Below are positions 4,213-14,798 of a stretch of 50,812 bases of DNA, in pieces. The stretch's first letter is position 1; every line of letters starts with the position of its first letter. Source of the DNA: Zoogloeaceae bacterium. GTDB lineage: Bacteria > Pseudomonadota > Gammaproteobacteria > Burkholderiales > Rhodocyclaceae. The notes beneath the pieces were generated by a model. That model made no database searches and was not told the DNA's origin. It saw nothing but the letters and a program-made list of their open reading frames with translations. The stretch is from assembly GCA_016791025.1 (NCBI GenBank), contig JAEUNX010000054.1:1-50812 (forward strand), written 5' to 3'. The translations under genes were made by a program, and so were the position numbers.

Positions 4213-4780
4213 TGCCCCGCCCCGCGCCGAGACCGAACTGGGCGCCCTCCTCCTTGCCCACGCCCGCGCGGCCATCTCCCGGGAACTTGGGCAAGCCGTT
4301 GCTCTCCCGTCGGAAGATCCCCGCCTGGCCCAGCGCGGCGCGACATTCGTCACCCTGACCCGCGACGGCGAGTTGCGGGGCTGCATTGGCAGCCTGAATG
4401 CCCGTCGTACGTTGGGCGATGACGTGGCGGATAACGCCCTGGGCGCCGCTTTTCGGGATCCGCGTTTTCCGCCGGTAACCGCTGCCGAATGGCCCCACCT
4501 CCAGGTGGAAGTCTCGCTCCTCAGCGACCCGGAGTTCCTGGAGGTCAAGACCGAGTCGGAGGCATTGGGGCGGCTTCGGCCTGGCATCGACGGAGTGATC
4601 TTCTTCAATGGCTGCCGCAAGGCGACCTTCCTGCCCCAGGTGTGGGCCCAGTTGCCCGACCCGCGGGAATTTCTCGCCGCCTTGAAGCGCAAGGCTGGTA
4701 TGGCTGGCGATTTCTGGGGTCCGAATGTGATGCTCGCGACCTATCAGGTGCAAAAGTGGGCGGAGAACACCAACAGCTAA
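4199..4780 (+). CDS. amrA: AmmeMemoRadiSam system protein A (AMMECR1 domain)
   Basis: A 193-residue AMMECR1-domain protein. The hallmark LRGCIGSLNARRTLGDDV is present, followed by AFRDPRFPPV and the C-terminal block IDGVIFFNGCRKATFLPQVW. Start choice matters: a longer open frame runs upstream but inside amrB. The TTG at 4199 has AAAGGA 6 nt upstream and gives LSAIDAPPRAETEL, a normal family N terminus; a GTG at 4184 is the alternative. It overlaps the 3' end of amrB and the likely start of amrS, which suggests translational coupling of all three. The biochemical role of AMMECR1 in this system is not established to my knowledge. Confidence 0.9.
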   Translation: MSAIDAPPRAETELGALLLAHARAAISRELGQAVALPSEDPRLAQRGATFVTLTRDGELRGCIGSLNARRTLGDDVADNALGAAFRDPRFPPVTAAEWPHLQVEVSLLSDPEFLEVKTESEALGRLRPGIDGVIFFNGCRKATFLPQVWAQLPDPREFLAALKRKAGMAGDFWGPNVMLATYQVQKWAENTNS

Positions 4781-5886
4781 AACCGCATGGCAAGGGCAGT
4801 CCGCCCCTCGGGGGCGTCCCGGCCCGGTATTGGCATACGCTGGACGATGGCCGTATCCAGTGCGACCTCTGCCCCAGGGATTGCCGCCTCCACGAAGGCC
4901 AACGCGGTGCTTGCTTCGTGCGGGGGATGGAAGGCGGCCGGATGGTCCTCACCACCTATGGCCGCAGTTCCGGCTTCTGTATCGACCCCATCGAAAAGAA
5001 GCCCCTCAACCATTTCTACCCGGGGTCGAGCGTCTTTTCTTTCGGCACGGCCGGCTGCAACCTCGCCTGCAAGTTTTGCCAGAACTGGGATATTTCCAAG
5101 TCCCGCGACATGGACCGGCTGATGGACGCTGCCGGCCCCGCCGAGATCGCCGCCACCGCCCACCACTGGGGCTGCCGCAGCGTCGCCTTCACCTACAACG
5201 ACCCGGTCATCTTTGCCGAATACGCCATGGATACCGCCCAGGCCTGCCACGACATCGGCCTGAAGACCGTCGCGGTGACCGCCGGCTATATCCACGCCGA
5301 ACCGCGCCGGGAATTTTTCGCCGTCATGGATGCGGCCAACGTGGACCTCAAGGGATTCACCGACGGCTTCTACCGCAAGCTCTGCGGGGCGGAGCTGGCT
5401 CCGGTACTCGATACCCTGGCCTGGCTGCACCATGAAACCACCGTGTGGGTGGAACTGACCACCCTGCTGATCCCCGACCAGAACGATTCCGAGGCGGAAA
5501 TCACTGCCCTTTCCCGCTGGGTGGCCGCCGAGATGGGGCCAGATGTCCCACTCCATTTCACCGCATTCCATCCTGACTTCAAGATGACGGATCTCCCCCC
5601 GACGCCCTCGGCGACGCTCCGCCGCGCGCGGCAGATCGCCCTCGATGCCGGACTGCATCACGTCTACACCGGGAACGTGCGGGACCCTTCCGGCGGAGTC
5701 ACCCACTGCACCGGGTGCGGCACCGCCCTGATCGAGCGGGATGGCTATCGCATCCTCGCCTACCGCCTTTCGGCCGCCGGCACGTGTCCCGACTGCGGGG
5801 CTCCCCTGGCCGGGCGCTTCGGCGATTTCGGCCAAGCCTTCGGTTCCCGGCGAATCCCGGTGGCCATTCATCGCAACCCGGCCTGA
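4756..5886 (+). CDS. amrS: AmmeMemoRadiSam system radical SAM enzyme
   Basis: Radical SAM protein related to pyruvate-formate-lyase activases. The cluster motif is CNLACKFC (C101, C105, C108 with the start used), preceded by FSFGTAG. N-terminal cysteines in CDLCPRDC (36-43) and at 53 and a C-terminal zinc-ribbon-like pair CTGC / CPDC frame the domain, suggesting extra metal sites. Homology to the family begins at RYWHTLDDGRIQCDL. There is no ATG, GTG or TTG immediately before it; the GTG at 4756 has AGGTG 5 nt upstream and overlaps amrA by 25 nt, so I chose it, but the start is uncertain. Third gene of the amr operon. Confidence 0.9.
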   Translation: MGGEHQQLKPHGKGSPPLGGVPARYWHTLDDGRIQCDLCPRDCRLHEGQRGACFVRGMEGGRMVLTTYGRSSGFCIDPIEKKPLNHFYPGSSVFSFGTAGCNLACKFCQNWDISKSRDMDRLMDAAGPAEIAATAHHWGCRSVAFTYNDPVIFAEYAMDTAQACHDIGLKTVAVTAGYIHAEPRREFFAVMDAANVDLKGFTDGFYRKLCGAELAPVLDTLAWLHHETTVWVELTTLLIPDQNDSEAEITALSRWVAAEMGPDVPLHFTAFHPDFKMTDLPPTPSATLRRARQIALDAGLHHVYTGNVRDPSGGVTHCTGCGTALIERDGYRILAYRLSAAGTCPDCGAPLAGRFGDFGQAFGSRRIPVAIHRNPA

Positions 5887-8404: not shown

Positions 8405-10138
8405 TCAAATTGGTCGCACCAGCGCGATGAGGAGAGCAATCACTACTGCCAGCAGCCCCAAGGAAACGCCCTTCCAGAACACCGTCGGATCCCGCTCAAT
8501 CAATGGGGGGCGCAATCGATGAAGAAAAGCGGGATTCGGGTTTCGCAGATCGTAAACGAACTCCGAGGGCTCGACGTAACGCCGATAGGGAGTGGGTTCT
8601 AGGGCTTTTTTCAATGCGCAGTCAATCCAGACCGGGATCGCCCGCTGCTCGTCCAATGCAGACTGGTAGCGCAATTTCTTCTGTGCCGCCCGGGTGCGGC
8701 ACTGGGAGACCCGGGTCCCGTAGGGGAGCCGCCCCGTCAGCATCTGGTAGGCGATGACGCCTAGTGAAAAGAGGTCGGAGCGGGCCGTCGCAACCTCGCC
8801 CAGAAAAAGCTCCGGGGCCGTGTATTGGGCCGTACCGAGAATCTCTTCAGGGGGAAGCCCCCGAGCTTCCTGAATTCCGGCCACCCGGGTGGCGCCGAAA
8901 TCGATGATTCGGACCGTCCCGCTGCGATCGATCAGGATGTTGTGGGGCCGCAGGTCCTGATGCACCATTTCCAGGCGATGGAAGGCCTGGAGCCCCCGGG
9001 CGATCTGCTCGACGATCCCCCGCACCACTTCCAGATCCGGCCGAGGGTGGTCGATCATCCACTGGGTCAGCGTCTGGCCCTCGACGTACTCCATCACCAT
9101 ATAGAGCGCGCTGCGCGCCCGATCGGGCAGGGCCGCCCTCAGGACATTGGGATGATGGATACGGCGGGCAATCCACTCCTCCATCATGAAGCGTTCGAGG
9201 TAGGCGGGATCGCCCTGGAGATCTACCGAGGGCATCTTGAGCACCACCTGCTGGCCGGTGTCGAGATCCATGGCGAGGTGGATGTGGCTTCGGCTGCTAC
9301 TGTGGAGGGTCCGCAGAATTCGAAAGCCATCGAACTCCCTGCGGGCCTCCAGGAGCGGCGGAAGTGGCAGCTCGATCGCCCTCTGGCGGACCTCGGCAGA
9401 ATTCTCCCCGGGGAGGCCATCGACGCGTACGATCTGGACAGTCAGGTTGTCCGGACTGCCGCGACGAAATGCTTCCTCGACAATGATCTGGGCCGCCCGG
9501 TCAAGATCCTTCGCTTCGCCATGAATCGTGCGGACGACGAAGGCCGGATCCACATGCTCATGGACGCCATCGGTCGCCAGGACGAAGACGTCACCGCGAT
9601 CCAGGACTTCTGTACGGTAGTCGATATCGAGTTGCTCATCGATGCCCAGAGCCCGGCTCAGGTAATTCTGTCCTTCGGAAACGCGGACCCGATGGTACTG
9701 AGTCAGCGGTTCCAGACTGGCTCCCTGCACCCGGTAGATTCGAGAATCCCCAACATGAAAGAGATGCGCGGTGCGGGACTTGAGGACCAGCGCGCTAAAC
9801 GTACAGACATAACCCTTGTCGCGGTCGTAGCGATCCGGGCTCTGGCGGGTCTGGGCGTAGAGCCAAGAATTGGTGGCCATCACCACCCGCTGGGCGGAGG
9901 TTTTGACCGACCACGCCTCGGAAGTGCAGTAGTAGTCGCCCAGAAACGATTTGACCGCCGACTCGCTGGCCACATGGGCCACCTGACTGGAACTGATACC
10001 GTCCGCCAAGGCTAGGGCAATTCCCTTGCTGCTGAGTTGGGCCCCACCTGGCACCACGGCGCCGTGGTGGTCCTGATTGATCGCTTTGCGGCCCTTGTCG
10101 GAATACTGTCCGAGGCTGACACGCAGGATTTCTGCCAT
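8405..10138 (-). CDS. Bifunctional PP2C phosphatase / Ser-Thr kinase with C-terminal membrane anchor
   Basis: A 577-residue fusion. Residues about 8-240 are a PP2C domain: ADG (45-47), HVGDSRIYR (Asp131), LATDGVHEHV (Asp190) and SPDNLTV (Asp230). Residues about 270-530 are a Hanks-type kinase: Lys301, HQDLRPHN (Asp395 in place of the common HRD form) and IDFGATR (DFG 413-415). The glycine-rich loop is not recognisable. A single transmembrane helix lies at about 556-574, so both domains face the cytoplasm. The same fusion commonly accompanies nitrate/nitrite transporters in proteobacterial nitrate-assimilation clusters, which fits its place after the FNT gene. ATG 10138 gives the family N terminus (MAEILRVSLGQYSDKG); ATG 10150 is possible. 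Confidence 0.9.
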   Translation of the reverse strand: MAEILRVSLGQYSDKGRKAINQDHHGAVVPGGAQLSSKGIALALADGISSSQVAHVASESAVKSFLGDYYCTSEAWSVKTSAQRVVMATNSWLYAQTRQSPDRYDRDKGYVCTFSALVLKSRTAHLFHVGDSRIYRVQGASLEPLTQYHRVRVSEGQNYLSRALGIDEQLDIDYRTEVLDRGDVFVLATDGVHEHVDPAFVVRTIHGEAKDLDRAAQIIVEEAFRRGSPDNLTVQIVRVDGLPGENSAEVRQRAIELPLPPLLEARREFDGFRILRTLHSSSRSHIHLAMDLDTGQQVVLKMPSVDLQGDPAYLERFMMEEWIARRIHHPNVLRAALPDRARSALYMVMEYVEGQTLTQWMIDHPRPDLEVVRGIVEQIARGLQAFHRLEMVHQDLRPHNILIDRSGTVRIIDFGATRVAGIQEARGLPPEEILGTAQYTAPELFLGEVATARSDLFSLGVIAYQMLTGRLPYGTRVSQCRTRAAQKKLRYQSALDEQRAIPVWIDCALKKALEPTPYRRYVEPSEFVYDLRNPNPAFLHRLRPPLIERDPTVFWKGVSLGLLAVVIALLIALVRPI

Positions 10139-10159
10139 GGATCCGAGCATCCCAAGTAA

Positions 10160-10220: not shown

Positions 10221-11033
10221 TCAGGCGGGGACGCGCTTGGGGGCGGTCTTGTAATGGGTGGAATACAGCGTGGCGCCCACGAAGGTCAGGCCACCCACCA
10301 GATTACCCACCACGGTGGGGATCTCGTTCCACATGAAGTAGTCATACAGCGTGAAATGACCGCCCAGCATGAGGCCGGAGGGGAACAGGAACATGTTCAC
10401 GATGGAGTGCTCAAAGCCCATGTAGAAGAACACCAGAATCGGCATCCACATGGCAATCACCTTGCCGGACACGGAGGTGGACATCATGGCGGCCACGACC
10501 CCGGTGGAAACCATCCAGTTACACATGACGCCACGGATGAAGAGGGTCAGCATGCCCGCGGCACCGTGGGCGGCGTAACCGACGGTCCGGCTCTCCCCGA
10601 TCGCCCCCAGCTTCTGGCCCACGGCATTGGGCGCCTCGGTGAAGCCGAAGGTGACAATGATGGCCATGAAGACGGCGGTGGTGAGCGCGCCCGCAAAGTT
10701 GCCGAGGAAGACGAGCGTCCAGTTGCGGAACACGCCACCCCAGGTGCAGCCCGGCCGACGGTCGATGACTGCCAGGGGGCACAGTGTGAATACCCCGGTC
10801 AGGAGGTCGAAGCCCAAGAGGTACAACATACAGAAGCCGACCGGAAACAGCAGCGAGCCGATCAGGAAATTACCGGTATTGACGGTGATGGTGACCGCGA
10901 AGGCGGCGGCCAGGGCCAGGATGGCGCCGGCCATATAGGCACGGATCAGGGTGTCCCGGGCGGACATGAAGATTTTCGATTCCCCGGCATCGATCATCTT
11001 GGTGACGAATTCAGAGGGAGCGAGATAGGCCAT
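10221..11033 (-). CDS. Formate/nitrite transporter (FNT) family channel
   Basis: A 270-residue FNT protein, an inner-membrane pentameric channel for nitrite, formate or similar small anions. Six hydrophobic segments are visible (starting near RAYMAGAILALAAAF, FLIGSLLFPVGFCMLYLLG, NWTLVFLGNFAGALTTAVFM, AGMLTLFIRGVMCNWMV, WMPILVFFYMGFEHSIVNM and VVGNLVGGLTFVGATLY). The conserved FEHSIVNM block with the pore histidine and the NFAGAL and CNWMVS signatures are present. It sits behind a sigma-54-type promoter and an ANTAR-type leader next to nasR, which favours nitrite (NirC-like) over formate as substrate. No nitrate or nitrite reductase gene is in the window. Confidence 0.92.
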   Translation of the reverse strand: MAYLAPSEFVTKMIDAGESKIFMSARDTLIRAYMAGAILALAAAFAVTITVNTGNFLIGSLLFPVGFCMLYLLGFDLLTGVFTLCPLAVIDRRPGCTWGGVFRNWTLVFLGNFAGALTTAVFMAIIVTFGFTEAPNAVGQKLGAIGESRTVGYAAHGAAGMLTLFIRGVMCNWMVSTGVVAAMMSTSVSGKVIAMWMPILVFFYMGFEHSIVNMFLFPSGLMLGGHFTLYDYFMWNEIPTVVGNLVGGLTFVGATLYSTHYKTAPKRVPA

Positions 11034-11056
11034 GGAGAGTCCTCGAGTTAAGCACT

Positions 11057-11119
11057 AAAAAAACGAAAACGGCGTCCGGCGCCGCCCATCTACGATAGGT
11101 CGACCACCGAGGACGCCGT
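11057..11119 (-). terminator. Intrinsic terminator in the leader of the FNT-kinase operon
   Basis: On the transcript a local hairpin CGGCG-CCGGA-CGCCG is followed at once by TTTTCGTTTTTTT. The same 3' arm (GGACGCCGT, 11069-11077) can instead pair with an upstream ACGGCGTCC (11111-11119) in a 9-bp stem. The T-run ends only about 24 nt before the FNT start codon, so this terminator lies inside the leader and must be read through for the operon to be expressed, as in an attenuator. Confidence 0.8.
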
Positions 11120-11138
11120 CATCCTTGTGTTTCACTGA

Positions 11139-11184
11139 GGCGACGGGCTCATCCCCGCGCCAAGTCCAGACCGCCGTTAGCCTG
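11139..11184 (-). promoter_or_regulatory. Two-hairpin ANTAR-type antitermination element in leader RNA
   Basis: Hairpin P1 (11184 to 11167) is CAGGCT-AACGGC-GGTCTG: a 6-bp stem counting G-U pairs, with a hexaloop having A at position 1 and G at position 4, the pattern recognised by ANTAR proteins. After 5 nt comes P2 (11161 to 11139), an 8-bp stem GGCG-CGGG / CCCG-CGCC with one bulged T and hexaloop GATGAG, which has G at position 4 but G rather than A at position 1. P1 begins about 5 nt after the predicted transcription start, and the terminator follows downstream. This matches the NasR-responsive nas leader layout of enterobacteria. Confidence 0.75.
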
Positions 11185-11199
11185 AAACATTCATTTTCA

Positions 11200-11215
11200 A
11201 GCATGTTTTGTGCCA
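11200..11215 (-). promoter_or_regulatory. Sigma-54 (-24/-12) promoter for the FNT-kinase operon
   Basis: TGGCACAAAACATGCT on the minus strand matches the TGGCAC-N5-TTGCW consensus at all defined positions but one (A for the first T), with GG and GC correctly 10 bp apart. Transcription would start near 11189, giving a leader of about 155 nt before the FNT start. Sigma-54 dependence implies an activator such as NtrC; I did not find a convincing NtrC site upstream. Confidence 0.8.
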
Positions 11216-11310: not shown

Positions 11311-12603
11311 TCACTTTTGGTGCGAGGACTTTTGGCCAAGCACGAAGATTGGCGAGGTCAGCGTGGCTTCCGCCACGTCCACCAGGCGCCGGTTCTGCTC
11401 CATGGAGGTCTGGCGGAGAAGCTTGTAGGCGGCATCCTCAGAGAGCTCGAGGCGCGCCATGAGTAGCCCTTTGGCGCGCTCGATGGTCTTGCGCTCGTTG
11501 AGGGCACGGCGGGCCGAATCGAGCTCCACCTCCATGGCTGCGAGGCGCTGGGATTGGGCCTGGAGTACGTCGATGATGGATTGACCCAGTCGCGGCCCCT
11601 CACCGTCCGCGGCAAACAGACCGTTTGAGTTGGTTTCCGGCAGACCGGGCTCAAAGAACCGACCCTCCATCCCCATCCGGGGCGGCGGACTTTGGCGGAC
11701 CCGCTGGAGCAAACCCTCGGCATCCTCCAGTTCCTGCTCGGCGACTTCGATCAGGGAATTGCATCGCTCATGGAGCAAGTCGACCAAGCTGCACTGGATC
11801 TCCCACATGGTTGCCAGCCGCTCGGAACAATCGTCGAACCATCGATCACTCAGATTGGCATCCAGTTCCGTTCCGGGCCGCGCACTGACAAGGATGCGTC
11901 GGTACCGCTCGATGCGGGCCATCACCGGCGCGCCCAGAGCCTGCTGCCAGGCCTTCTGGCGCGGTTGATCGGCATACTCCGCAAAGACCTGGAAACTGCG
12001 CTCCTGGGCATCGATCAGATGGAGAATCCGCTGCTGATGTTGCGGATCGCAGCGTCCCGAGGCGAAGGACAAAGACCCCACGGCCCGCTCCTGACCAGCC
12101 AGTTCCTTGCCTTGGATGAAATGGAACAGGGCCACCAGGGCGCGGGAGATCGCGGGGTCCACCGCGGCGTCCGCCACCTCGAAGATCAGGGAAATCAGTC
12201 CCGCGATTAGTGCACTGAAAGAATTCACCGCCTCCGTCGCCGAAATGCTGCGCTCGGCAATCTGACGCCGCAGCTCCGGCAGTGCTTCCAACCCCAGGAG
12301 CACCCACGCCATGACCGAATAGAGGCGAGCATTGCCAAAGGCCGGCATTTCGAGCTGCTGGGCGAAGCTCTTGCGAAGATAGGTTTCCACCGTGCAGGAC
12401 TCGATAATCAGCTCTGCACGCGTACCTTCGAAACGTTGCCCGCTCGAGGCGAGGTAGATGCTGGACGCACCCCGCTCATTTTGCAGGGCATGCACCAGGT
12501 GGCCGATCACACTGGCCAAACGGGCCTTCGTGGCCAGGTGACGCAGTTCCTCGATCTCGCGCTGCTTGCCGGCGAGTACGATCTGGGCGACGGATAATTC
12601 CAT
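11311..12603 (-). CDS. nasR: NasR-type nitrate-responsive antiterminator (NIT and ANTAR domains)
   Basis: A 430-residue cytoplasmic regulator. The N-terminal two-thirds (about residues 35-290) is a helical NIT domain, with the typical GHLVHALQNERGASSIYLASSG and later YRRILVSARPG and SLVDLLHERCNSLI stretches; NIT domains bind nitrate and nitrite. After a linker rich in Pro and Gly and a short coiled coil (AQSQRLAAMEVELDSARRAL), the C terminus is an ANTAR RNA-binding domain (about 365-420; NERKTIERAKGLLMARLEL, DAAYKLLRQTSM). On binding nitrate, NasR stabilises an antiterminator in a target leader; the expected target lies directly downstream at 11057-11184. It follows allA by 58 bp on the same strand, so purine-operon transcripts might reach it. 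Confidence 0.93.
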   Translation of the reverse strand: MELSVAQIVLAGKQREIEELRHLATKARLASVIGHLVHALQNERGASSIYLASSGQRFEGTRAELIIESCTVETYLRKSFAQQLEMPAFGNARLYSVMAWVLLGLEALPELRRQIAERSISATEAVNSFSALIAGLISLIFEVADAAVDPAISRALVALFHFIQGKELAGQERAVGSLSFASGRCDPQHQQRILHLIDAQERSFQVFAEYADQPRQKAWQQALGAPVMARIERYRRILVSARPGTELDANLSDRWFDDCSERLATMWEIQCSLVDLLHERCNSLIEVAEQELEDAEGLLQRVRQSPPPRMGMEGRFFEPGLPETNSNGLFAADGEGPRLGQSIIDVLQAQSQRLAAMEVELDSARRALNERKTIERAKGLLMARLELSEDAAYKLLRQTSMEQNRRLVDVAEATLTSPIFVLGQKSSHQK

Positions 12604-12661: not shown

Positions 12662-13171
12662 TCAGGTCAGGATTGGAATCCAGACGGGATCCTGGAGGGA
12701 AGTCTCGTCGCAATTTGGCCCCGGACCATCGCGATCTATGACCAGGAAATCGCACGCCTGATCCAACGCCAGGAGCGGATGGTGCCAAACGCCGGGGGCG
12801 TAATTCACGCCCTGGTCTCCTTGCGCCACGAAAAGACGCAGATCCCGGGCCGTTGGTGGCATCCCTGCGGGCGCTACCAAAACCAGGTAGGAGCGCCCCG
12901 AGAGCGGCACAAACGCCTGGCTTCCCAGGGGATGCCGCTCCATCATTTCCACTTGAAAGGGCAGCACGCGCGGCTGGCTGCGAAAAATTGAAACGATGGC
13001 CCGGCCTCCGGGCCCCGGATCGATGGTCGCCAGGTCATGGAATCGTTCGGTCGTGCCACCATTGATGGCAAAGTGGCGCACAGCCTCCCCGGCCTCGATC
13101 ACGTCACCAAAGGGTGCAAAACGAACGTGGTCCAGGGCTTCCACCTGAAGGAATCGCGCCCCCCGCGCCAT
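12662..13171 (-). CDS. allA: Ureidoglycolate lyase
   Basis: A 169-residue AllA-family protein, splitting (S)-ureidoglycolate to glyoxylate and urea. It shows the family order: FGDVIEAGE, HFAINGGTTERFHDLA, VSIFRSQPRVLPFQVEMMERHPLGSQAFVPL and the cupin-like C-terminal GVNYAPGVWHHPLLAL. Length agrees with known AllA (about 160-170). Its ATG directly follows the allantoicase stop, so the two are translationally coupled; it is the last gene of puuD-uraD-alc-allA. No urease is visible in the window to use the urea. Confidence 0.93.
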   Translation of the reverse strand: MARGARFLQVEALDHVRFAPFGDVIEAGEAVRHFAINGGTTERFHDLATIDPGPGGRAIVSIFRSQPRVLPFQVEMMERHPLGSQAFVPLSGRSYLVLVAPAGMPPTARDLRLFVAQGDQGVNYAPGVWHHPLLALDQACDFLVIDRDGPGPNCDETSLQDPVWIPILT

Positions 13172-14209
13172 TCAGGGCCCCGCCCGGCCCCAAAGCCGCA
13201 AGCGTGATACGCCCCCATCGGGAAAAATGTTGAAGCGCACGTGGGTAACGGGTCCCAAGGCCGCCCCATCCACCGCGAAGCGGTGCACCGCGTCCATGCT
13301 CAAACGGGATTCGGGTAGCAGAGTGCCCCAGAACAGGCTCTGGTTGGCGATGGAGCCATCCGTGCCGGCCTCGACGCGGGCCGCCTGGAGAGAGCAGCGA
13401 TCCGGGAAATTGCCCTTGAAATAGGCGGTATCCACTTCGATCTCTTCGATCACACCCGGAGTGGCGAGGGCCAGAACACACCAATCGTGGCCAGGTTCGC
13501 GCCGTCGCCGGGTCTCCCACCCGTCGCCCATGTCGCGCCCCCGACCGGGCAACAGCAGGTTGGCCACTGCCGAGCCGAAACTGGCGTCATTCCATGCCAC
13601 CGGCCGACCGCCATGCTCCAGAGCCACCAGATCCACCAGGGCGTCGCCGGCGCCATCCAGTGCGCCGCAGACCTCGCCATAAACCCGTAACCGGGCAATC
13701 CCGCCATCCGGATAGATGTTCACCCGCAGGTGGGTCCAGGTCTCACCGTTGCGGCAGGGCAGGAGGTGATGACGATTCGGACCCAAAGAGCTTGGTGCCA
13801 GGATCTCCTGCCAGCTCGCCAGGGCGAGCACCTCCGCATCGTCCGACGCTGCGTGAGTGGCCTCGATGGACACCGCAGGGGGATAGTTGCCGATGAAGTG
13901 GCTGGTATCGACATCGAATCCATGAATCCGGCCTGGGACCCCAAGCTTGACCACCGCCCAGTCGTGTCCGGGCCCCCGTTTGCGGCGGGACTCCCAGCCA
14001 TCCATCCATTTGCCGTGATCGTCGTACTGGCCGGGAATGAACACCGCCGGGTCCGGCGTCAGCATGCGGGCGGCGGGGGCAAAAAACTCGTCGCTGGCCG
14101 CCAGGGCCACCGCACCCAGGCGAGGATTGGCGAGGTTCACGGTTCGTTGGGCCCAATCGGGTAAATCCGCCGGCGGCGCAACGATAGGAGGACCGGGAAA
14201 GCGCACCAT
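13172..14209 (-). CDS. alc: Allantoicase
   Basis: A 345-residue allantoicase, hydrolysing allantoate to ureidoglycolate and urea. It has the family's two homologous jelly-roll halves: the first with [31 protein letters not shown] and [20 protein letters not shown], the second with [31 protein letters not shown] and [20 protein letters not shown]. The ATG at 14209 has AGGA about 7 nt upstream; a longer open frame to 14782 merely crosses uraD in another frame. It follows uraD by 49 nt and ends exactly where allA begins. Its substrate must come from an allantoinase not seen here. Confidence 0.95.
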
Positions 14210-14258
14210 GACGGATCCTGTCAGGGTAGAAGGGGGAAAGCATGAAGGCCTGATTTCA

Positions 14259-14798
14259 TCACAGCAAAGCCTCAAGCCGGAAGTAGGCGATGCGCGCCAC
14301 CTGGGCCATCGCGGCCTCGAACTCCTCCGCTCGCCCATGGCACAGGCGGGTCTCCAGGGCTTGCAGGATTTCTGCCGGGCCCAGTCCTTTGACGGCGATG
14401 ATGAACGGAAAACCGAACTTCTCGCAGTAGGCACGATTGAGCGTTCCCAAGCGCTCGCCCTCCTCGTCCGTGCAGGAGGCGAGCCCGGCGCCTCGCTGCT
14501 CACCACGCGAGGCTGCCGTGAGCGTGCCGGACTGCACCGCGCGCGCACCGAGCTCGGGATGGGCACGGAGGAGCGAGAGCTGGCTGGCCTCATCGGCAGC
14601 GTACATTGCGGCCACCAGGGCCCCGTGGAGCCCCTCCAGGCTTGGGAAAGGCCGGCTCGCCCAGGCCCGTTCCGCGACCCAGGGTGAGTGCTCGAAGAGA
14701 TGGCCAAGCTGCGCCACAAATGCGGCTTGGTCGAGCATCGAGAGGTGGGCAAGCTTGGCGCCCCGGGTAGCCGTTCCCGCATCAGAGTGCTGGGTCAT
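14259..14798 (-). CDS. uraD: OHCU decarboxylase
   Basis: A 179-residue UraD, converting 2-oxo-4-hydroxy-4-carboxy-5-ureidoimidazoline (OHCU) to (S)-allantoin. Motifs are [32 protein letters not shown] (with the catalytic-type His) and [17 protein letters not shown], followed by ILQALETRL. Its ATG overlaps the puuD stop by 4 nt (ATGA). It works after urate oxidase (PuuD) and HIU hydrolase (UraH), both encoded nearby. Confidence 0.95.

Follow-up and report, generated by a model that had tools for sequence, protein, structure and literature searches.

A probable NasR-type attenuation leader precedes an FNT channel/PP2C-kinase module in a Zoogloeaceae genome

Results

The stretch of DNA analyzed (50,812 nucleotides; hereafter, the window) corresponds to contig C165 in the draft genome of a Zoogloeaceae bacterium (2.50 Mb in 208 contigs, 79% complete). 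On its minus strand, nasR (11311–12603; 430 aa) is followed by the genes for an FNT-family channel (10221–11033; 270 aa; PF01226, E 9.1e-62) and for a protein combining a PP2C phosphatase with a Ser/Thr kinase (8405–10150; 581 aa; PF13672 and PF00069), and then by cupin and OsmC-like genes. Domain profiles bore out the initial annotation in that nasR encodes a regulator with NIT (PF08376, E 2.3e-49) and ANTAR (PF03861, E 1.7e-20) domains and lies directly upstream of a leader region, with the FNT gene as the first one after this leader and the PP2C-kinase gene downstream. Genes for ureide catabolism (ureidoglycolate lyase and allantoicase; 12662–14782, minus strand) adjoin nasR upstream, which makes two nitrogen-scavenging modules neighbors. 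Elsewhere in the window, an AmmeMemoRadiSam radical SAM protein is encoded (4489–5886, plus strand; TIGR04337, E 1.5e-187).

NasR aligned with the structure of NasR from K. oxytoca (4akk, E 5.6e-44), the numbering being matched to the 4akk chain through the residues named in PMC7496416. Both domains and the RNA-contact residues are present: the equivalents of R340, R366, and N373 are kept, with Tyr at the position of W362 and Asp at that of E359 (alignment read by hand). By script, R176, Q194, and D201 were found to be kept, E191 and R193 to be replaced by Gln, and Q204 by Glu; two of the five autoinhibitory partner residues (E191 and R193) are thereby altered. The FNT protein was the sole match in its own genome at E ≤ 0.001 (the genome being 79% complete). 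Its best relatives of solved structure are the low-CO2 inducible protein LCIA (9v2a, E 3.6e-29) and FocA channels, NirC being weaker (7e-7); it scored below the NCBIfam equivalog cut-offs, with FocA models ahead of NirC. Nitrite as its substrate is suggested by the nirB neighborhood of this gene module (see below), not by sequence class.

Between nasR and the FNT gene, a near-consensus −24/−12 promoter, a first hexaloop hairpin with A and G at loop positions 1 and 4 (A1 and G4), and an intrinsic terminator with a T-run just before the FNT gene had been proposed, and all three were recovered on the minus strand. The sigma-54 promoter, predicted from its motif (TGGCACAAAACATGCT, 11200–11215), matches the consensus at 9 of 11 positions, with GG and GC 10 nt apart and the flanking positions in keeping with it, and the genome contains an RpoN gene. 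It is the sole exact match to the pattern in the window; with one mismatch, the pattern occurs at chance level there (4 found versus 3.68 expected). No NtrC site was recognized near the promoter when the window was scanned with its binding pattern; loose matches (40 in the window versus 66 expected by chance) come nearest on the upstream side at 11490–11506, inside nasR. The first hairpin, P1 (UUCAGGCU-AACGGC-GGUCUGGA, 11165–11186), has 8 contiguous pairs, is part of the minimum free energy fold, and has its loop beginning 21 nt past the end of the promoter.

The terminator occupies 11057–11120, its 5′ arm (11111–11120) and 3′ arm (11070–11079) being followed by the T tract TTTTCGTTTTTTT (11057–11069), and the region 11057–11125 was predicted to fold at −36.4 kcal/mol. 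A second hexaloop hairpin with counterparts in relatives, P2 (AGGAU-GACGGC-GUCCU, 11110–11125), overlaps it. Because both use 11111–11120, P2 and the terminator exclude each other: the predicted pair probability of P2 is ∼0.48–0.49 before the 3′ arm of the terminator has been made, and 0.001 afterward. Read as a hexaloop, P2 has 5 bp, G4, and a U-G closing pair, but G at loop position 1 (G1), so that A1 and G4 occur together in P1 only. The A-U pair at its base lies outside the stem of the terminator. The energy model closes G1 with C6, which results in 6 bp with an ACGG tetraloop. As a whole, the leader (11034–11196) folds at −66.2 kcal/mol (z −2.77), which was equaled by 2 of 200 shuffled sequences.

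A rule for the ordered set (a promoter with at least 8 of 11 matches; a P1 with A1/G4 and at least 5 bp; a P2 with A or G at position 1, G4, and at least 4 bp; and a terminator starting in P2) matched the window at a single place, the present one, and matched none of 100 dinucleotide-shuffled sequences; having been written after leaders had been seen, the rule serves as a chance check rather than as a blind test. Furthermore, 77 records (1,226,467 bases, both strands), chosen mainly for a relative of NasR or FNT or because they are parts of the same genome, were scanned for the loop motifs, a sigma-54 match 15–26 nt from P1, and a terminator, without any requirement for a stem. The resulting 37 rows were reduced to 31 leaders (30 distinct sequences, window included) by removing alternative P2 registers (L007, L009, L010, L012, L016, and L044). 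In all 31, the −12 element of the promoter and the P1 loop are 17–24 nt apart.

In the 30 distinct leaders, 90.8% of the 360 P1/P2 cells were paired (shuffles, 75.5%; slid controls, at most 45.3%), two-sided changes affected 10 of the 12 pairs (6 of the 7 counted in P1), and these changes filled 53 cells (13.5 in shuffles). The covariation score was 0.528, compared with 0.229 in shuffles, and none of 500 shuffles reached the values of the leaders on any of five measures; as the set was picked by loop motif and terminator and contains related sequences, the shuffle figures overstate independence, whereas the slid controls keep the relatedness. The pair count includes record L051, although its hairpin at the standard distance fails (2 of 7 pairs), and in 15 of the 30 leaders, the two outermost bases of P2 do not pair. 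A terminator behind nasR is to be expected anyway, and the promoter motif taken alone is at chance level, but an unrelated nasR terminator accompanied by coincidental hairpins is hardly credible given the shuffles, the covariation, and the fixed distance between promoter and P1. P2 on its own discriminates poorly: a scan of the own genome with the P2 pattern (up to one mismatch) gave 43 matches, the reversed pattern 30. Among the 20 of these 43 matches that were relocated, a run of five Ts within 100 nt was found only for the window leader (L084), L086, and L090 (one mismatch).

The loop of P2 begins with A in 29 of the 31 leaders, the exceptions being the window and its nearest record, L003, a Zoogloeaceae MAG contig (NasR 92% and FNT 98% identical). 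When five hand-picked leaders (L042, L126, L128, L172, and L086) were added, G1 was also found in L042 and L172, and A in the other 32 of the 36. The closing pair of P2 is U-G in 7 of 9 leaders preceding FNT but in none of the other 27 (p 4e-6 by Fisher's test; post hoc, from related, non-independent rows, with the window and L003 representing one genus), and G1 occurs in 4 of the 9. No changes of ANTAR residues accompanying G1 were seen by eye when NasR of the window was compared with 40 other NasR sequences. By SELEX, NasR was reported to prefer A1 and G4 with a terminal C-G pair (part of PMC7496416), and an A-to-U exchange at loop position 1 lowered induction by EutV (part of PMC3369931); the sections of PMC3369931 on ANTAR leaders yielded no description of G at this position.

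G1 might mean that the leader is degenerating, with P2 closed into a tetraloop, NasR inactive, and either a fixed attenuator or constant low read-through into FNT left behind. The predicted G1:C6 pair is in line with this, as is L042, the third case of G1 with C6, which seems to lack P1. Yet between the window and L003, P2 is identical in 16 of 16 bases, and the P1 stretch in 19 of 23 with pairing kept through a change from G-U to G-C, compared with 63 of 101 columns upstream of the promoter; the conservation of P2 is no proof here, because P2 is also an arm of the terminator. Moreover, in L172, a candidate from another family, G1 occurs in a loop that cannot close (GAAGAA), and P1 is intact, albeit at an atypical distance from the promoter (29 nt). 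On balance, degeneration of the leader is considered unlikely.

The second hexaloop hairpin had initially been placed upstream of the terminator. A hairpin with the loop GAUGAG does exist there (11139–11161, minus strand; minimum free energy fold), but it does not overlap the terminator, and its assignment as P2 was rejected, the counterpart in relatives being the hexaloop in the terminator arm (11110–11125). Since both hairpins have G1, the remark on G at the first loop position of P2 remains true, though for a hairpin other than the one it was made for. That P1 and 11139–11161 form the antiterminator pair nevertheless has some points to commend it: the fold is stable, the hexaloop has G4 and lies near P1, and the loop reads AAUGAG in L003 and hence has A1/G4, as have some middle hairpins of Salinicola. 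However, binding apart from the terminator would not explain antitermination, the closing pair is G-C instead of C-G, and at this place most other leaders have either no helix or one whose loop differs in size. In contrast, the terminator arm carries a hexaloop in 31 of 31 leaders (a loop that the rule itself required), with a covarying stem, which makes this pairing of P1 with 11139–11161 very improbable.

The most plausible role of the hairpin at 11139–11161 is that of a spacer helix within the stretch linking P1 and P2, because long linkers fold and because the family member L159 has a linker of the same length and topology but different sequence. In the window, 40 nt separate the 7-bp P1 and the 5-bp P2, ∼8 of which stay unpaired if the spacer helix forms (linker z −2.7, mononucleotide shuffles); L159 likewise has 40 nt, with one bulged helix (topology judged by eye). 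Across the leader set, linkers span 13–133 nt. Among 30 leaders (the 31 without L051), 17 have linkers of at least 36 nt, with a mean z of −2.27 (mononucleotide shuffles) and with 4–35 nt (median, 10) unpaired after folding; the mean z of the 13 short linkers is −1.36, so that the folding excess of the long ones is moderate. Parts of the literature give much shorter linkers, 5–12 nt in eut leaders, where 3 or 14 nt were harmful (PMC3369931), and 2–25 nt in actinobacterial ANTAR RNAs (PMC8164766), and an additional 20 nt abolished antitermination by EutV (PMC8934654). A third hexaloop hairpin with A1/G4 lies between P1 and P2 in the Salinicola records L007, L009, L010, and L016 (loops AACGAC, ACCGUC, and AAGGUC; 15 nt from loop end to P2) and in L003 (AAUGAG; 22 nt). 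In these leaders, it may provide an extra contact for the ANTAR protein.

Among 399 genomes of the order, 22, one of which is the own genome, encode relatives of FNT (E ≤ 1e-80). Of the other 21, 20 have the kinase gene next to it (in G390 after a gap of 585 nt; G285 lacks it), and in 10 of the 21, nirB is located 0.5–1.0 kb upstream on the same strand. Judging from gene order, FNT/kinase is a module that often travels with nirB, and we infer that the one in the window descends from a nirB-linked one. Around the leader, the order is nasR-leader-FNT-kinase in L159, nasR-leader-nirB-FNT-kinase in L170, and nirB-nasR-leader-FNT-kinase in L043; in L171, where the genes have the same direction, the 1.2 kb separating nasR from nirB contain the leader.

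Conservation in relatives with nasR-FNT synteny, which had been named as the test of the initial proposal, was for the most part found. The promoter, both hairpins, and the terminator are all retained in L003 (with its duplicate L156), in L159, and in L043. L042 keeps P2 and the T-run, with a weak promoter match and a terminator hairpin that is visible in the fold but was not flagged by the exact-arm rule; P1 was not found there in motif scans. Such scans detected no leader in L056, where nasR and FNT are in another order, and none before FNT in many of the FNT-kinase pairs scanned. Of the other nasR-bearing records (L156 left out), 27 of 53 have at least one leader, mostly but not always just after nasR. 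The remaining 26 have none by the scan rule, which overlooks some leaders found by looser scans (such as L005, L008, L045, L050, L164, and L169) as well as the nrt leader of the own genome, and looser scans recover some of them.

No reductase gene was in view in the window, as had been stated, but this does not hold for the genome. On contig C183, a second ANTAR protein (receiver plus ANTAR, NasT-like) is followed by a canonical leader and ABC-type uptake genes, and near its gene are those for NirB, a molybdopterin nitrate-reductase-like protein, an MFS transporter, and a second PP2C-kinase. With nirB, the nitrate-reductase-like protein, and the uptake genes on another contig, a nitrate-assimilation pathway is therefore encoded outside the window. 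The canonical leader (L086, the nrt leader; C183:19791–19804; P2 UGGAC-AACGGC-GUCCA with A1, and a T run) is situated just 3′ of the receiver-ANTAR gene and before an NMT1-like binding protein, and its P1 loop is AGTGAC. The two PP2C-kinase paralogues, encoded at L041:6437–8179 (minus strand) in the nitrate-assimilation cluster and at 8405–10150 (minus strand) with FNT in the window, are 34% identical.

The second ANTAR protein, as well as the exchanges of E191 and R193 for Gln and of Q204 for Glu, speak against the adjacent NasR as the acting factor. The receiver-ANTAR protein could act on the window leader instead, or both factors could share both leaders, since the NasT-like gene has a canonical leader just 3′ of it and the leaders of the window and of L086 share P2 features. 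This is a rather unlikely alternative, with nasR adjoining the leader in the window, L003, L159, and L043, and with leaders in about half of the other nasR-bearing records, most just after nasR.

Discussion

Taken together, the region 5′ of FNT/kinase is very probably a nitrate- or nitrite-responsive attenuation leader of the NasR type, judging from its sequence and that of its relatives. In favor of this reading, P1 and P2 covary in the 31 leaders, the same order recurs in L003, L159, L043, L170, and L171, and the overlap of P2 and terminator fits the model for EutV, NasR, and AmiR, in which P2 arises from the 5′ side of the terminator base (parts of PMC3369931). The kept RNA-contact residues, the presence of RpoN, and the linkage to nirB also support it. 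Against it stand G1 in P2, the lack of a recognizable NtrC site near the promoter, and the scans that found no P1 in L042 and no leader in L056, besides the second ANTAR protein and the residue exchanges in NasR. The initial proposal of a sigma-54-driven, NasR-type ANTAR leader for FNT/kinase is well supported by synteny and covariation, whereas its site for P2 has to be moved and its point about the reductase was misleading.

In the mechanism envisaged, sigma-54 RNA polymerase, probably together with phosphorylated NtrC, would start just upstream of P1 under nitrogen limitation. P1, at the 5′ end of the transcript, would fold immediately and recruit nitrate- or nitrite-bound NasR, whereupon the spacer helix would fold and bring P1 and P2 close. 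The emerging P2 could then take over NasR and be held, which would make the 5′ arm of the terminator unavailable, keep the terminator from folding, and let transcription proceed into FNT and the kinase. In the absence of nitrate, the far stronger terminator would be expected to win. As a tentative extension, such leaders might be three-part switches of a P1 at the 5′ end, a folded spacer (sometimes with an A1/G4 hexaloop), and P2, which would accommodate a linker beyond the limit for EutV. Equally speculative is the idea that the closing pair tunes the strength of P2; if true, the level of nitrate or of active NasR at which channel and kinase are switched on would be higher than that for the uptake and reductase operons.

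According to parts of PMC7496416, nasF/NasR of K. oxytoca resembles the system in the window in its one-component NIT-ANTAR regulator, its two hexaloop hairpins, its nitrate/nitrite signal (predicted here), and its terminator. It differs in the target, which is the nasFEDCBA operon there and FNT plus PP2C-kinase here, and the window leader departs from that of nasF by G1 and the U-G closing pair of P2 and by a 40-nt linker with a helix. The eut leaders controlled by EutV in E. faecalis share P1 and a P2 in the terminator arm (parts of PMC3369931 and PMC8934654), but have linkers of 5–12 nt (part of PMC3369931), compared with 40 nt in the window and 13–133 nt in the leader set. As proposed for the window leader, NalA of Pseudomonas is driven by sigma-54/NtrC and has a terminator relieved by an ANTAR protein, so that this combination is already known for nirBD; unlike here, its partner is NasS/NasT and its target nirBD (part of the review PMC12830290). 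Nitrate and nitrite transporters were among the ANTAR-leader targets predicted by Ramesh et al (part of PMC3369931). Within the limited literature coverage searched, no paper was found that links FNT/nirC, nirBD, and PP2C/kinase with antitermination. The kind of leader is thus known, and its target module and two departures (G1 in P2 and the long linker) make it a variant. With it, a nitrite-channel/phosphatase-kinase module joins the likely targets of NasR antitermination. Natural leaders such as this one break two published rules for ANTAR RNAs (A1 in P2 and a short linker) while keeping the rest, and those with G1 or long linkers can be used to test what NasR requires of its RNA.

The window leader (11140–11214) also aligns over the whole Rfam model of narK RNA (RF03032), promoter included, at 18.9 bits (E 2.3), which is below the gathering threshold of 43.2 bits and does not establish membership. 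Among 15 records, matches at E ≤ 5, all below gathering, were to narK RNA in 7 records and to P11 (RF00625) also in 7, which we take to be NalA. Such sub-threshold matches fell on the nasR-linked leaders of L020, L022, L023, L027, L028, L029, L030, and the window; none to narK RNA was found in L003, L018, L019, or L086 in this search, nor at E ≤ 1 in L003 and L042 in a separate one. The P1-type loop motif is present in 7 of 7 narK matches, and a second motif at the place of P2 in 6 of 7. The narK consensus itself holds the promoter, P1, and an unannotated P2-like CGAC-AAAGAC-GUCG, the Rfam structure marking the first hairpin only. Rfam narK RNA may therefore describe part of an ANTAR leader. 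No paper on narK RNA or RF03032 was found, which carries low weight, as the coverage missed even the likely source paper. In the window leader, a short AUG-started frame, noticed by eye, overlaps P2.
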